From the NCBI GenBank assembly GCA_016204335.1, contig JACQKU010000004.1, positions 1 to 51,137 of the forward strand: a DNA stretch of 51,137 nt. Direction: 5' to 3'. Source of the DNA: Candidatus Liptonbacteria bacterium (GTDB taxonomy: Bacteria > Patescibacteriota > Minisyncoccia > UBA6257 > 2-01-FULL-56-20). Shown one piece after another: positions 15,244 to 24,135 of the stretch (position 1 is its first letter; every line of letters begins with the position of its first letter). A model generated the notes under the pieces. It searched no databases and had not been told where the DNA came from. It saw only the letters and a program-made list of their open reading frames with translations. Position numbers and translations under genes: made by a program.

Positions 15244-16013
15244 TTTGTTTTTGGGTCGTAATGCGCTTTGTCGTAAAACTCCTCTCGAATCGGAGCTTTT
15301 TTGATAATCCGAAGCGCTTCCTCCGCGGAATCGACCATGGTATAAATCCGCGTATCCGCCTGGTCAACGGCCTTATACTTTCTGCAGACCTCCGCGTCAA
15401 TCCATTCCGTCAATGGCTTCCAATATTCACTGCCAAAAAGGATGACGGGGATGCTTGAAATTTCCTTGGTCTGTATCAGCGTAATGATTTCGAAAAATTC
15501 GTCGAGCGTTCCGAATCCGCCGGGAAAATAAACATACGCCTCCGCCGCGTAGGTAAGCATCACTTTCCGCGTGAAAAAATAATGGAACGCGCGCGACCGT
15601 TTGACGTACGGATTGATGCGCTGCTCTTCCGGCAGTTCGATGTTAATCCCCACCGAATCGCCTTTTCCCTCGAACACGCCCCGATTCGCAGCTTCCATTA
15701 CGCCCGGACCGCCTCCGGTGACCACGGCAATGCCTTCGCCCGCCAAAAGCCTTCCGAGCTTCCGCGCTTCTTTGTACCACTTATTGCTTTCGGGCGAGCG
15801 CGTGGAACCGAAAATCGTCACGCACTTGGGAAAGTCGGCGATGAACTCGAATCCTTCCACAAACTCTCCCATAATGCGGAACACGCGCCACGGCATCGAG
15901 GAACGGAAATCGCGATAGTCCTTATGCGGGGGAAGCTTTGCAGCCGGAAGATTCCAAGAACCCTTGTTTTCGGGGAACGTTTCGGAAAATTTTCCGGAGC
16001 TGTTTTTTTTCAT
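15240..16013 (-). CDS. LOG-family (TIGR00730, lysine decarboxylase-like) protein
   Basis: VVTGGGPGVMEAANRG and PGGFGTLDEFFE motifs. Confidence 0.9.
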   Translation of the reverse strand: MKKNSSGKFSETFPENKGSWNLPAAKLPPHKDYRDFRSSMPWRVFRIMGEFVEGFEFIADFPKCVTIFGSTRSPESNKWYKEARKLGRLLAGEGIAVVTGGGPGVMEAANRGVFEGKGDSVGINIELPEEQRINPYVKRSRAFHYFFTRKVMLTYAAEAYVYFPGGFGTLDEFFEIITLIQTKEISSIPVILFGSEYWKPLTEWIDAEVCRKYKAVDQADTRIYTMVDSAEEALRIIKKAPIREEFYDKAHYDPKTK

Positions 16014-19559: not shown

Positions 19560-21416
19560 ATGTTTAAATTGATTTCCAATTTTGTCCCCCAAGGCGACCA
19601 GCCGGACGCCATCGAAAAGCTGTCCGAAGGGGTGAGCCACGGCCTCGAACATCAGGTTCTTTTGGGCATTACCGGAAGCGGCAAAACGTTTACGATGGCG
19701 AAAATGATTGAACAGCTTCACCTGCCGACGCTCGTCATCTCGCCGAACAAAATCCTCGCGGCCCAGCTATACCAGGAATTCAAAAGTTTTTTCCCGGAAA
19801 ACGCGGTTCATTATTTCGTTTCCTACTATGACTACTACCAGCCCGAGGCGTATCTGCCTTCGACCGACACGTACATCGCGAAAGACGCGCGCATCAATAA
19901 GGACATCGACCGGCTCCGGCACGCGGCGCTCCAGGCGGTGCTCGAACGCCGCGACACCATTGTCATCGCTTCGGTTTCCTGCATTTACGGCGTCGGCGAC
20001 CCGGCGGAATATCAGAAAGCGTGTCTCGCCCTGAAACTCGGACAGAAAATAAGTCCGGCTGACGCGGCGCGGCACCTTAATTTTTTGCAGTACGAACGTG
20101 TAGAGCGCGAGCCGGAGCATATCGGCCAGTTCAAACTCGAAAAAAACGAACTTGTGGTTTATACAATCGCCGGAGAAAGAATATTATTGACATTTTCCGC
20201 CAAAGGCGGATCCGCCTCGGGCGGAAAAAATCAACTTGTTTCAATTTTCAACTCCCACAAAAACGAGTCGATACAGTCGCTCAAAATATTTCCGGCGAAA
20301 TTTTGGGTGACGCCGCGCGACCGGCTCCGCATCGCCATTGCGAACATCAAAAAAGAACTGTCCGAGCGCGTTGAGGACTTGCAGGCCGCGAACAAATTCG
20401 CCGAAGCCGAACGGCTTACCAAGCGCGTTTCGTTCGACCTCGAACGGCTGAAAAAAGACGGGTATATGAACGGAATCGAAAACTACTCGCGGCATCTCTC
20501 ATTCCGAGAGCAGGGCGAACCGCCGATGACCATTCTCGATTATTTCCCAAAACCGTTTTTGCTATTTATCGACGAATCGCACATCGGCGTGCCCCAACTG
20601 AACGGGATGTACGCGGGCGACCGGAGGCGCAAGCAAACGCTTGTTGATTACGGCTTCCGGCTTCCGTCCGCTCTCGACAACCGCCCGCTCCGGTTCGAGG
20701 AATTCAAAAAGAAAATCGGCCAGACGATTTATGTTTCGGCGACGCCCGGCGACTATGAAATGCAAATTGTAAAAGAAACGGGGCAGGTCGCGGAGCAAAT
20801 CATCAGGCCCACCGGCGTGCTCGACCCTGAAATCATCATCAGGCCGGCGCAGACGCAGATAAAAAGTTTGCTCGCGGAAATAAAAAAGCGGACGCTCAAA
20901 AACGAGCGGGTTTTGGCGCTGACGCTCACGAAACGCCAGTCCGAAGACCTGACCGAATTTCTTTTGAGCCGCGGCATCAAAGCCGAATATATCCATTCGG
21001 AAATAAAAACGCTGAAGCGGCCCGAAATTCTCCACAGGTTGCGGAGCGGCGAAGTTGACGTGCTCGTCGGCATCAATCTTTTGCGCGAAGGTTTGGATTT
21101 GCCGGAAGTTTCGCTCGTGGCAATTTTGAACGCCGACCGCGAAGGATTTTTGCGGAATCACCGGAGCTTGATGCAGATGGCGGGCCGCGCGGCGCGCTCC
21201 ACCAACGGCCAGGTGATTTTCTACGCCGACCAGATTACCGAATCCATCAGAAAAGCGGTCGGCGAAACCAACCGCCGCCGGAAAGTCCAGCTCGCGTTCA
21301 ACAAAAAATTCTCATTGGAGCCGAAGACAATCAAAAAGCCGCTCACGGTCGCGAGTTTGCTCGAAATCGCGGGGTTTCGGAGCGAAAACGACGCGCAGAT
21401 TGCGGACGAGGATTGA
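19560..21416 (+). CDS. uvrB: UvrABC system protein B
   Basis: GDQPDAIEKLSEGV, GITGSGKTFTMAK, SYYDYYQPEAYLPSTDTYIAKD. Confidence 0.97.
   Translation: MFKLISNFVPQGDQPDAIEKLSEGVSHGLEHQVLLGITGSGKTFTMAKMIEQLHLPTLVISPNKILAAQLYQEFKSFFPENAVHYFVSYYDYYQPEAYLPSTDTYIAKDARINKDIDRLRHAALQAVLERRDTIVIASVSCIYGVGDPAEYQKACLALKLGQKISPADAARHLNFLQYERVEREPEHIGQFKLEKNELVVYTIAGERILLTFSAKGGSASGGKNQLVSIFNSHKNESIQSLKIFPAKFWVTPRDRLRIAIANIKKELSERVEDLQAANKFAEAERLTKRVSFDLERLKKDGYMNGIENYSRHLSFREQGEPPMTILDYFPKPFLLFIDESHIGVPQLNGMYAGDRRRKQTLVDYGFRLPSALDNRPLRFEEFKKKIGQTIYVSATPGDYEMQIVKETGQVAEQIIRPTGVLDPEIIIRPAQTQIKSLLAEIKKRTLKNERVLALTLTKRQSEDLTEFLLSRGIKAEYIHSEIKTLKRPEILHRLRSGEVDVLVGINLLREGLDLPEVSLVAILNADREGFLRNHRSLMQMAGRAARSTNGQVIFYADQITESIRKAVGETNRRRKVQLAFNKKFSLEPKTIKKPLTVASLLEIAGFRSENDAQIADED
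20193..20229. repeat. Palindromic repeat TTTTCCGCCAAAGGCGGATCCGCCTCGGGCGGAAAA in frame within uvrB
   Basis: Nested inverted repeats; near-copy in intergenic DNA at 34207-34240. Confidence 0.8.
21339..21381 (+). repeat. 43-bp direct repeat, copy 1 (inside the uvrB 3' end)
   Basis: ccgctcacggtcgcgagtttgctcgaaatcgcggggtttcgga, exact match at 22205-22247. Confidence 0.97.
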
Positions 21417-21490
21417 TCCCGTGAGAAGTCCGATGCGAAGACGCATCGGCAGTCCAGACGGCGCTGTCGGGATTTACTTCTAAATTGAGC

Positions 21491-21518
21491 TTGACAGGTA
21501 TAGCAATTTTGCTATACT
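21491..21518 (+). promoter_or_regulatory. TA-module promoter with operator palindrome
   Basis: TTGACA-N16-TATACT; GTATAGCAA-TT-TTGCTATAC palindrome at 21498-21517 overlaps spacer and -10. Confidence 0.7.
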
Positions 21519-21557
21519 GGAAAATGAAAGGTCGGCGGCCGGAATACAATAAACAAT

Positions 21558-21857
21558 GTGAATATACAGATACTCAGCAATGTCTCGAAGTTTCTTGAAG
21601 GACTCTCAAGAGAGGACGACGCCAAAATAGCCGCGCATTTGAAATCGCTTGCAATGGATCAGACCGACGGGCTTGCGATAAAACCTCTCAAAGGGAAAAT
21701 AAAAGAACTAATCGTGAGGCAATACCGAATCGTGTTCTTCAAAATAGGCGATAGCGGATATGTCGTGGATGTTTTCAGAAAACAGAGCAAGAAAACCCCG
21801 AAGCGAACCATCGAGCGAGCCGAGAGAATCTATCGGGACATTAATGCAAAGCAATAA
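21558..21857 (+). CDS. RelE/HigB-like toxin (GTG start)
   Basis: LKGKIKELIVRQYRIVFFKIGDSGYVVDVFRKQSKKTPKRTIERAERI pattern of phage-derived Gp49-like/HigB toxins. Confidence 0.82.
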   Translation: MNIQILSNVSKFLEGLSREDDAKIAAHLKSLAMDQTDGLAIKPLKGKIKELIVRQYRIVFFKIGDSGYVVDVFRKQSKKTPKRTIERAERIYRDINAKQ

Positions 21858-21886
21858 CTGCCAGTCGGGTAATAACAAAAAATGAG

Positions 21887-22204
21887 ATGAAAAAAATAAA
21901 CGCTGCAAAATATAATTTTACTTCGCTTGATACGATCATCAGAAAAAAACTCGCCAATCGGCGATTCCGCGCGTCGTTCACGGAAGAAACAAACAGATTG
22001 CAATTGGCACGCGAAATCAGAGGATTACGCGCGAAGAGGAATATGACCCAGAAAGAAGTCGCGGCGGAGGCGAATATGCCCCAATCCGTTGTCGCGCGTA
22101 TAGAATCAGGAACGCACAGCGTCTCGATTGCCACGCTTCATAAAATCGCGGGGGTCTTCGAAAAACGTGTCGGCTTGGTGGGACAAACACAAGACCGCAG
22201 ATAA
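21887..22204 (+). CDS. XRE-family HTH antitoxin (HigA-like)
   Basis: LRAKRNMTQKEVAAEANMPQSVVARIESGTHSVSIATLHKIAGVF. Confidence 0.85.
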   Translation: MKKINAAKYNFTSLDTIIRKKLANRRFRASFTEETNRLQLAREIRGLRAKRNMTQKEVAAEANMPQSVVARIESGTHSVSIATLHKIAGVFEKRVGLVGQTQDRR

Positions 22205-22247
22205 CCGCTCACGGTCGCGAGTTTGCTCGAAATCGCGGGGTTTCGGA
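22205..22247 (+). repeat. 43-bp direct repeat, copy 2 (orphan uvrB 3' end)
   Basis: Identical to 21339-21381; continues as KNEEDIDTSLVEEE* in the uvrB frame. Confidence 0.97.
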
Positions 22248-22290
22248 AAAACGAAGAGGATATTGATACGTCGTTGGTTGAAGAAGAATA
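22205..22290 (+). pseudogene. Remnant of a uvrB C-terminus (PLTVASLLEIAGFRKNEEDIDTSLVEEE*)
   Basis: In-frame reading of 22205-22290 reproduces the UvrB C-terminal segment with a different acidic tail. Confidence 0.85.
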
Positions 22291-22327
22291 GTTACTCTGA
22301 TAAAATATATGAAACTAAAGATACGAT

Positions 22328-23593
22328 ATGTCATCAAAAAAATTTATATTTCAAGATAAAAAAATAAAGATTGATTCCGATACTACAAAAATACTGGATG
22401 ATTTCTTTGACACAATCCCTACTCTGGAAAAAGAGTTAGAGAAAACTCTGTTGGTTTTATTTGATTCAAAAACTAAAGTTTTTTATACACTCTGTAATAT
22501 AAAAAAGAAAAATTTTGTGGGTTTAGTAGATAAAAATGCGGTCATTGACCCTGATCTCCAGGAAGATTACAAGTTAAATAGAGACCTTCAGCCGAACAAT
22601 CCAGATTTCAAGGAAATGCAAAATGACGCAAGTAAGGGCAGGCAATTTACTGATATTGTAGTCGAATACAATAAACAATATAAACCAGATAGGCCCTTAA
22701 AAATCCTGGGTGGCCAGCACAGGGCAGAGGCGATAGAACAAAAATCTCCAGATGAATCAGTACATGGATTGAGAATTTATTTCAACCTAGATAAAGACAA
22801 AAGAGCTGAAATCGCTATAATTTCTAACACGAATATCGATATTTCTCCTGACCTGCTTGATAGAATGGAGGAGCAAAGACTTGATCCACCAAATAAGCTT
22901 AGAGATTTTGCATACGCAATAGGCTTGCTTGAAAAAGGTAAAGATTTTGCTGATTCAAGAGTTAACCCTAATAATTTACCTACGGTAAGGATGGCTAGAA
23001 CATTTATAGTTAATTTTTATAAGGGAAGGGAATACGAAGAAGATTATGATAGCGATGCATTAGAAGGAATGATTTGTTCTTCATCTGGCATGGATTCTGA
23101 TTACGAAAAAATTTATAAAATTAAAAACTTTGCTGAGGATGAAAAATTAGTAGGAGCAGGAAAAAAATTTATAGAATTACATAAAAAACAATATAAAATT
23201 GCCTCGAATAGAGAGGGACTTAAACAAGTAAAAGCCCACAGGATGAAAGCAATGGCTATAGCAGTTGTTTCTGCGTGGTCTTACGTAAGTGGGTTGTTAC
23301 AACGTGATTCGAAAAGATTAAGTAAATTTTACGATTTACCAAAAAACTCTGGCAAGAATGACCCGCTGAATGCAAAAGCGATGACAGCTTTTCAGCTTAA
23401 AGGCGTTGACCCCGAAGCATATCGTGGGCTTGGCACAAGAACAGACGCAAAAGAACGTGGCAGATTAATAACAATTTTCTTAGAATACTCTAAGGCCGCA
23501 AGTGGAGACGAAATAAATCCAACTTTATTAGACCGAGCAGTTAGATATTATCAAGGCAATAAAATGAGAAAAGAGGGTGATAAATATAAATGA
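22328..23593 (+). CDS. DGQHR-domain-like protein (DndB-related superfamily)
   Basis: RPLKILGGQHRAEAIEQKS; downstream pattern IAIISNTNIDISPDLLDRM. Confidence 0.75.
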   Translation: MSSKKFIFQDKKIKIDSDTTKILDDFFDTIPTLEKELEKTLLVLFDSKTKVFYTLCNIKKKNFVGLVDKNAVIDPDLQEDYKLNRDLQPNNPDFKEMQNDASKGRQFTDIVVEYNKQYKPDRPLKILGGQHRAEAIEQKSPDESVHGLRIYFNLDKDKRAEIAIISNTNIDISPDLLDRMEEQRLDPPNKLRDFAYAIGLLEKGKDFADSRVNPNNLPTVRMARTFIVNFYKGREYEEDYDSDALEGMICSSSGMDSDYEKIYKIKNFAEDEKLVGAGKKFIELHKKQYKIASNREGLKQVKAHRMKAMAIAVVSAWSYVSGLLQRDSKRLSKFYDLPKNSGKNDPLNAKAMTAFQLKGVDPEAYRGLGTRTDAKERGRLITIFLEYSKAASGDEINPTLLDRAVRYYQGNKMRKEGDKYK

Positions 23594-24135
23594 AATCCTC
23601 TAGTTATTCATTGATAGATCATATAAAACTGCTCCTCGATTCAAACGAATGGTATCTTGAAAAGATTAGAACGAAAAATACTCTCCCATTCCAGGAAGAG
23701 ATTTTTTGTATGGCGGTCATATCTAATGCTTGGTCGGCATTAGAAGGATACATTAATTTCATAGCTTCTTTGGCAAAATTCGCTAGAAAACTTGAATCTC
23801 ACGAAATGGCCTTCCTTGAGGAAATGGATTGGAAATTAAACGACAAGGGGAAATTTGAAAAACAGACAGCCTATCAGTCAACTACTAAAAAGTTCCTTTT
23901 TTTGTTAGAAAGGTTTTCTTCTGTAAAAATAGTTAAATTTAATAAAAGTAGAATCTGGAACGATATGAAAGTATCAGAAAAAATAAGAAATGGCCTCATA
24001 CATCCAAAAGAAACTATCGTCTTTAAGGATTTTAATCTTGAAACAGCAGAAATGACACATAAGACCGCCAAACTAGCTATTCTTTTTTTGGAGAAAAAAG
24101 TTTTGAAATCAAAACACTCGAGTTTCCAAAGTTAA
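23590..24135 (+). CDS. Putative HEPN-like protein
   Basis: Helical ORF with SEKIRNGLIHPKE (R-X4-H); ATGA 4-nt overlap with the DGQHR gene. Confidence 0.5.
   Translation: MKSSSYSLIDHIKLLLDSNEWYLEKIRTKNTLPFQEEIFCMAVISNAWSALEGYINFIASLAKFARKLESHEMAFLEEMDWKLNDKGKFEKQTAYQSTTKKFLFLLERFSSVKIVKFNKSRIWNDMKVSEKIRNGLIHPKETIVFKDFNLETAEMTHKTAKLAILFLEKKVLKSKHSSFQS

Follow-up and report, generated by a model that had tools for sequence, protein, structure and literature searches.

Nobusato (2000) and Furuta (2010) reportedly described the insertion of restriction-modification (R-M) genes with long target duplication. Judged from the excerpted accounts, this is the nearest described kind of event to the one considered here (PMC3874152, PMC1643837). 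Two further precedents, each likewise drawn from part of its source, are a toxin-antitoxin (TA) module of Microcystis that lies behind MaOC1 between two identical 152-bp direct repeats (PMC7935541) and the integration of recircularised linear DNA into Escherichia coli by a RecA-dependent single crossover that duplicated part of lacZ (PMC3240628). Here, we analysed the uvrB locus of a 51,137-nt stretch of Candidatus Liptonbacteria DNA (the window; contig 20 of the 23 that make up the 700,911-base genome G000), in which a repeat of the uvrB 3′ end brackets a HigB/HigA-like TA operon, together with other genes and genomes. The arrangement is real and recurrent in G000 and some of its relatives. 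We favour, with moderate confidence, the reading that an addiction module and the core-gene tail it travels with integrate by one homologous crossover within that tail, and that addiction then hinders their loss.

An exact 43-bp uvrB repeat with copies 866 bp apart had been predicted from the bare sequence, and both coordinates and spacing were reproduced (Table 1); the match extended to a direct repeat of 94% identity over 50 nt (21332–21381 and 22198–22247). With up to 3 mismatches allowed, the window contained two occurrences of the first 25 bases of the repeat, compared with an average of 0.00 over 100 shuffles, which excludes a chance origin. Copy 1 reads to FRSENDAQIADED with a stop at 21416 and copy 2, in the UvrB frame, to FRKNEEDIDTSLVEEE with a stop at 22291, frames and tails both agreeing with the original prediction, and that prediction was also right that the antitoxin stop codon (TAA, 22202–22204) directly abuts copy 2 and that no integrase is visible in the interval between the repeats. 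Outside the core the two copies did not align (identities of 9/30 to the left and 10/30 to the right), and this pair alone says nothing on the origin of the copies since only 43 bp align. The tail of copy 2 (NEEDID) is closer to the uvrB tail of the relative G010 (SEEDVEV), both having EED followed by I or V, than is the tail of copy 1. On this likeness we take copy 2 to be the older uvrB end, presumably displaced by the insertion, and the last 35 nt of uvrB are probably a tail supplied by the element. A Pfam search found no C-terminal UVR domain in the window UvrB; the UvrB proteins of G010 and of a further relative, G028, which share its tail motif, also stop soon after that motif, so the short UvrB end was not caused by the insertion.

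In G010, whose UvrB is 80% identical to that of the window, two tandem cassettes lie downstream of uvrB, each ended by a copy of the uvrB tail. The first holds a YoeB/HigB-like toxin gene (below Pfam cut-offs), preceded by an 87-aa open reading frame (ORF), and ends in a tail copy of 75 nt that is 93% alike; the second holds a DNA methyltransferase gene (PF01555, E 1.1e-57) and a putative PD-(D/E)XK nuclease gene (E 6.7e-4, below cut-off) and is closed by a third, more diverged tail copy. The uvrB gene of G028 had no repeat of at least 14 nt in 1,464 bases downstream and is followed by rpsT, and is apparently an empty site. The search of relatives for empty sites and other cargo suggested by the original prediction therefore yielded an example of each, and these, with the likeness of copy 2 to the G010 tail, support its proposal that a short element without an integrase supplied the uvrB C-terminus. 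The idea of uvrB as a general hotspot was rejected: a tail search across 244 genomes from the order found the PLTVA-LLEIAG tail in additional copies only in G000 and G010 (two weak matches each in G061, G119, G131, G057, G037, G184, G185, G218 and G237 were not all inspected), and among 20 short-tail uvrB loci none of the 17 in which the gene end was located had a downstream repeat of at least 13 nt. The same tail was found at three loci in GTDB contigs, namely G010, G028 and one with a different tail.

Scans of G000 (690,157 of 700,911 bases), G010 (697,807 bases), G231 (400 kb; another family), G023 (400 kb) and E. coli K-12 (300 kb) revealed this layout at seven protein genes in three genomes, with eight insertions in total as G010 uvrB carries two. 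These genes were uvrB, gpmI, glmS and tsaD in G000, uvrB and htpX in G010, and a SpoU-type methyltransferase gene in G231; there were no cases of this kind in E. coli K-12. In the genome scan with a smaller ORF limit, remaining matches were classed as paralogues or dispersed repeats by sequence judgement and were not tested one by one. An empty site was evident for gpmI, which directly adjoins uvrC in G010 and G028. G233, which belongs to the same genus as G231, has an HTH and Fic pair behind this methyltransferase gene (L263 2029–2726) with no tail copy within 1.5 kb, and taken together the two genomes suggest that Fic modules favour this site as a hotspot; a second short methyltransferase tail copy was found only in G231 among the matches listed for the 244 genomes. 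Scanning 50 loci of gpmI, glmS and methyltransferase relatives flagged four, comprising the three known cases and L139, which was rejected as a 17-nt chance match. The rows for L148, L154, L158, L163 and L269 were not used as evidence, as the wrong ORF had been taken as the gene.

Differences between the tail copies bear on the origin of the duplication. In six aligned tail pairs, 25 of 36 differing codons were synonymous (P 1.4e-7 when tested against a neutral value of 0.27; the neutral expectation was 0.20–0.24 per pair), and 30 of 46 differing bases lay at third codon positions, with the clearest synonymous excess at htpX (6/6) and tsaD (8/9, including the stop). A non-coding copy would decay randomly, so in several cases both copies were once working gene ends in different lineages. 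That the duplication reflects an imported homologous tail and not a decayed target copy is thus well supported by these alignments in several cases, and simple tandem duplication followed by decay, which the original prediction had recognised as the reading that would overturn it, is contradicted. At gpmI, the core is preceded by threonine in copy 2 and by methionine in copy 1, and threonine was present in every gpmI relative whose tail was recovered by motif (15 of 29 other loci). Allele-like differences flank the identical core on both sides at the G231 methyltransferase gene and at G010 uvrB, a pattern to be expected if a tail carried by the element and the resident tail had undergone a reciprocal crossover. 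Such two-sided divergence was slight at gpmI and tsaD and was missing on the left at G000 uvrB, htpX and glmS.

The preference for gene 3′ ends was controlled using ORFs of at least 150 aa, with paralogues and dispersed repeats removed and a score line of 40. At or above this line, a tail was copied downstream five times in G000 (one of these, C15, is a repeat protein and was left out of the cases), once each in G010 and G231, and never in G023 or E. coli; htpX, with a score of 30.5, fell under the line. A head was copied upstream once in G231 and downstream once in G010, and no tail was copied upstream. A 3′-end bias is evident in G000 and thin in the other genomes.

In the reading we favour, a small DNA molecule would carry a complete addiction module behind a core-gene 3′ tail that stems from a foreign lineage. 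A single reciprocal crossover in a short stretch identical between the incoming and the resident tail would yield the resident gene body joined to the imported tail, then the module, and finally the resident's own tail, now displaced. The gene would remain intact, and the reverse crossover would bring back its original end. The molecule would most likely be a small circle, perhaps a fragment taken up by competence and joined at its ends, and would be integrated by RecA; genes for RecA and ComEC-family proteins were present in 4/4 genomes tested, and DNA uptake by Patescibacteria has been argued for, as far as the excerpted text goes (PMC12455944). Recombination between the tail copies would delete the insert, and TA or restriction genes would make that loss costly. 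Such punishment of loss would explain why this kind of cargo is found: addiction-type or defence genes occur in six of the eight protein-gene insertions, a raw count without a baseline of TA density.

Several observations, beginning with the rawness of that count, weigh against this reading. We infer the circle, its uptake, the role of RecA and the addiction, as well as the excision. The inserts at tsaD and htpX contain no cargo genes; the original prediction had counted duplications without TA genes as adverse, and such repeats do exist, at genes other than uvrB. The Fic/Doc-like toxin gene at glmS is broken by one stop codon, G023 had zero cases in 400 kb, and neither gpmI (2/7 codons synonymous) nor copies 1 and 2 of G010 uvrB (1/3) showed a synonymous excess. 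To the left of the core, copy 2 lacks homology at G000 uvrB, htpX and glmS (at most a few bases at glmS), so that one homologous and one illegitimate join would fit equally well. Finally, in 7/7 cases the core, of 22–51 bp, starts 44–79 nt before the gene end although 130 nt were scanned, a uniformity that att-like sites would predict and recombination of random fragments would not. More broadly, it is possible, though we hold this only tentatively, that Patescibacteria of this order exchange addiction modules in a recombinase-free and sequence-unspecific traffic, in which a core-gene tail would serve each cassette as its address label: by short homologous recombination the cassette would home to that gene across species, leave it restored and then be locked in by addiction.

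The regular core positions lead to the alternative that survives best, although we judge it unlikely, namely that these are non-autonomous integrative elements moved in trans by the integrase of a helper now gone, with an attP that mimics a gene 3′ end as in tRNA, trmE and rlmH islands. As in gene-3′-end islands, a direct-repeat core at the 3′ end and a restored target gene are present, an architecture equal to attL and attR with gene restoration; the tails are uniformly short, and tRNA-Ser, tRNA-Glu and 5S rRNA ends are partly duplicated as well. Two large serine recombinases are encoded in G010 (ORFs of 575 and 662 aa; L182 and L180/L194, contigs 8 and 6), beside one tyrosine recombinase. 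However, no recombinase was found within the cassettes that have listed genes, and G000 has no serine recombinase and a single tyrosine recombinase that stands alone on contig 6, a different contig from the window, and that we take to be XerC-like; G028 likewise has one tyrosine and no serine recombinase. No motif was common to the seven cores, as their best 8-, 10- and 12-mers were no better than chance (60 shuffles each), and without a core site shared by all seven, several helper integrases would be needed. The search for recombinases elsewhere in the genome that the original prediction had proposed thus produced only the stand-alone enzyme, and its picture of uvrB as a dedicated target, like that of tRNA islands, was not borne out, given this result, the same layout at gpmI, glmS, tsaD and the 5S rRNA end, and the lack of a common core motif. 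A phage or plasmid carrier was rejected, as two cores had no exact match in viral contigs and a plasmid search gave no match.

Less likely still is the uptake of linear DNA with homology-facilitated illegitimate recombination, by which one end would cross over in the gene tail while the other joined by chance within the resident tail. This fits G000 uvrB, htpX and glmS, where copy 2 begins abruptly at the core, and RecA and competence genes are present. It predicts identical left flanks, whereas the G231 gene and G010 uvrB show allele-like differences there; a random second end would not land so regularly in the tail; and published products mostly carry deletions of about the insert size, according to the relevant part of the source (PMC3240628).

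We regard as very improbable an insertion with long target duplication as for R-M genes, in which the resident target would be copied at entry and drift later. Long direct repeats around TA or R-M genes without a transposase are present here, cargo and repeat length are similar as far as the excerpt of PMC3874152 tells, and the window pair, identical over 43 bp and undiagnostic alone, would fit. Descent of both copies from the resident target is nonetheless at odds with the predominantly synonymous differences (25/36 codons), and at gpmI it is copy 2 that has the threonine of its relatives and copy 1 the methionine, unlike the decay of a non-coding copy. That the genes between the copies are unrelated to the repeat, which would stem from tandem duplication of a gene end or from misassembly, is scarcely credible, since the layout recurs in the independent assemblies G000, G010 and G231, right-hand tails and cargo differ, and empty sites exist.

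The cargo of the window cassette is as predicted, with HigB/HigA-like genes between the repeats that match PF05973 and PF01381 in the order of a higBA-type type II operon, with the RelE-fold toxin gene first and the HTH antitoxin gene second (Table 1). Matches of the toxin to HigB structure chains were weak (best E 8.2e-4). The promoter match and the palindrome it overlaps are probably an autoregulated TA promoter and operator, judging from their sequence. The antitoxin ends in GQTQDRR and its homologue in G077 in GQTQNRR, a likeness which indicates that this C-terminus is natural and that the cassette ends exactly at the last codon of the operon. Toxin homologues were found in seven other genomes, with an HTH-like gene directly downstream at six of the seven loci. 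At one locus (L281, in G077) the HigBA homologue lies between intergenic 29-nt direct repeats (27 identical) at 1400 and 2314; the other six had no repeat longer than 13 nt within 1.5-kb flanks, and we rejected the idea that this toxin family is generally bracketed by repeats.

Table 1. Features of the uvrB cassette in the window, and gene ends with the same layout elsewhere.
Feature	Position or genome	Strand	Core and spacing	Details
uvrB	19560..21416	+		618 aa; NCBIfam PRK05298, E 2.6e-260 over residues 2–597
Core copy 1	21339..21381	+	43 bp	within uvrB, from codon 594 on
Tail of copy 1	21382..21416	+		SENDAQIADED, then stop
Inverted repeat (hairpin)	21430..21449	+		8+8; just 3′ of uvrB
Promoter match	21491..21518	+		TTGACA-16-TATACT; overlaps perfect 9+9 inverted repeat at 21498–21517
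Toxin gene, HigB/Gp49 type	21558..21857	+		99 aa, GTG start; PF05973, E 3.4e-11 (Gp49/RelE fold)
Antitoxin gene, HigA type, HTH_3	21887..22204	+		105 aa; PF01381, E 1.7e-12
Core copy 2	22205..22247	+	43 bp	
Displaced tail	22248..22291	+		KNEEDIDTSLVEEE, then stop; taken as older uvrB end from likeness to G010
gpmI	G000		41 bp, spacing 666	RHH antitoxin and YafQ/RelE-type toxin (toxin below Pfam cut-off)
glmS	G000		42 bp, spacing 1,228	MazE-like antitoxin gene, Fic/Doc-like gene and other material including tRNA-Glu fragments
tsaD	G000		37 bp, spacing 232	no cargo gene
htpX	G010		22 bp, spacing 143	no cargo gene
SpoU-type RNA methyltransferase (RlmB/TrmH-like)	G231 (other family)		51 bp	351-aa Fic protein, then tail copy
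5S rRNA gene 3′ end	G000, L101 4973–5088		copy 945 bp on	two ORFs without assigned function between

Partial duplications were also observed at tRNA genes. In G010 (L186 2235–3691, contig 12), tRNA-Ser(CGA) is followed by partial copies of its 3′ half, two of which (46 bp, exact) bracket a 201-aa membrane-like ORF. In and beside the glmS segment of G000 (L100 15159–16608, contig 6) lie tRNA-Glu(CTC) and two tRNA-Glu-like 3′ fragments, with 38 bp repeated exactly at 15300 and 16530, as if the region consisted of several nested insertions. On contig 3 of G000 (L097 9421–10682), a 24-bp exact repeat by tRNA-Gln sequences surrounds a 281-aa gene without a Pfam match. Between copy 2 and rpsT in the window are two genes (22328–23593 and 23590–24135) without a Pfam, NCBIfam or PADLOC match and with a single weak PHROGs match, to the second gene only; a solved-structure search with the first likewise gave no match. 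The product of the first contains GGQHR, which brings to mind DndB/DGQHR proteins, a resemblance we presume, and the two genes are possibly another accessory insertion within the uvrB–rpsT interval. A dispersed repeat family with a consensus near ATGCCAGGTAGTGAAAATTCGAC is present at 1484, 4100 and 29276 of the window, on contigs 3 and 9 of G000, and in several copies in the genome.

The arrangement suggests how TA and restriction genes may settle in streamlined genomes with no help from a transposase or integrase. It also recasts "long target duplication", as the copies that can be compared look like the gene-end versions of two lineages, so that the repeats would record donor and recipient, and it offers a testable reason for addiction modules behind core genes, since inserts between direct repeats would be lost unless loss is punished. 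In the open-licence literature we found no account of Patescibacteria in which core-gene tails bracket TA cassettes, which is no proof of novelty.

Among known systems, the integration of recircularised DNA in E. coli shares the duplication of a homologous segment around the insert, RecA-dependent there and proposed to be so here; according to the excerpted text it involved a laboratory plasmid and longer homology, whereas the present cases are natural, with short tails and addiction cargo (PMC3240628). The Microcystis module likewise has a TA pair that direct repeats flank immediately downstream of a gene, with no recombinase mentioned in the part of the report consulted, but its repeats are intergenic and not a gene tail, and that part gives no evidence of coding divergence (PMC7935541). 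Gene-3′-end islands (Islander tRNA islands and SGI1 at trmE), as partial sources describe them, resemble the cassettes in that the element restores the 3′ end of the target, a displaced fragment lies at the far end and tandem occupancy occurs; in contrast, the cassettes have no integrase, measure only ~0.6–1.5 kb between tail copies, use several unrelated targets per genome and share no common core. The R-M insertions with long target duplication have in common with the cassettes addiction-type genes between long direct repeats, variable and on the order of 100 bp, and no transposase. They differ in that the cargo here is mostly TA modules and that the repeat, in every case a gene 3′ end, is a homologous tail of foreign origin whose divergence is synonymous.

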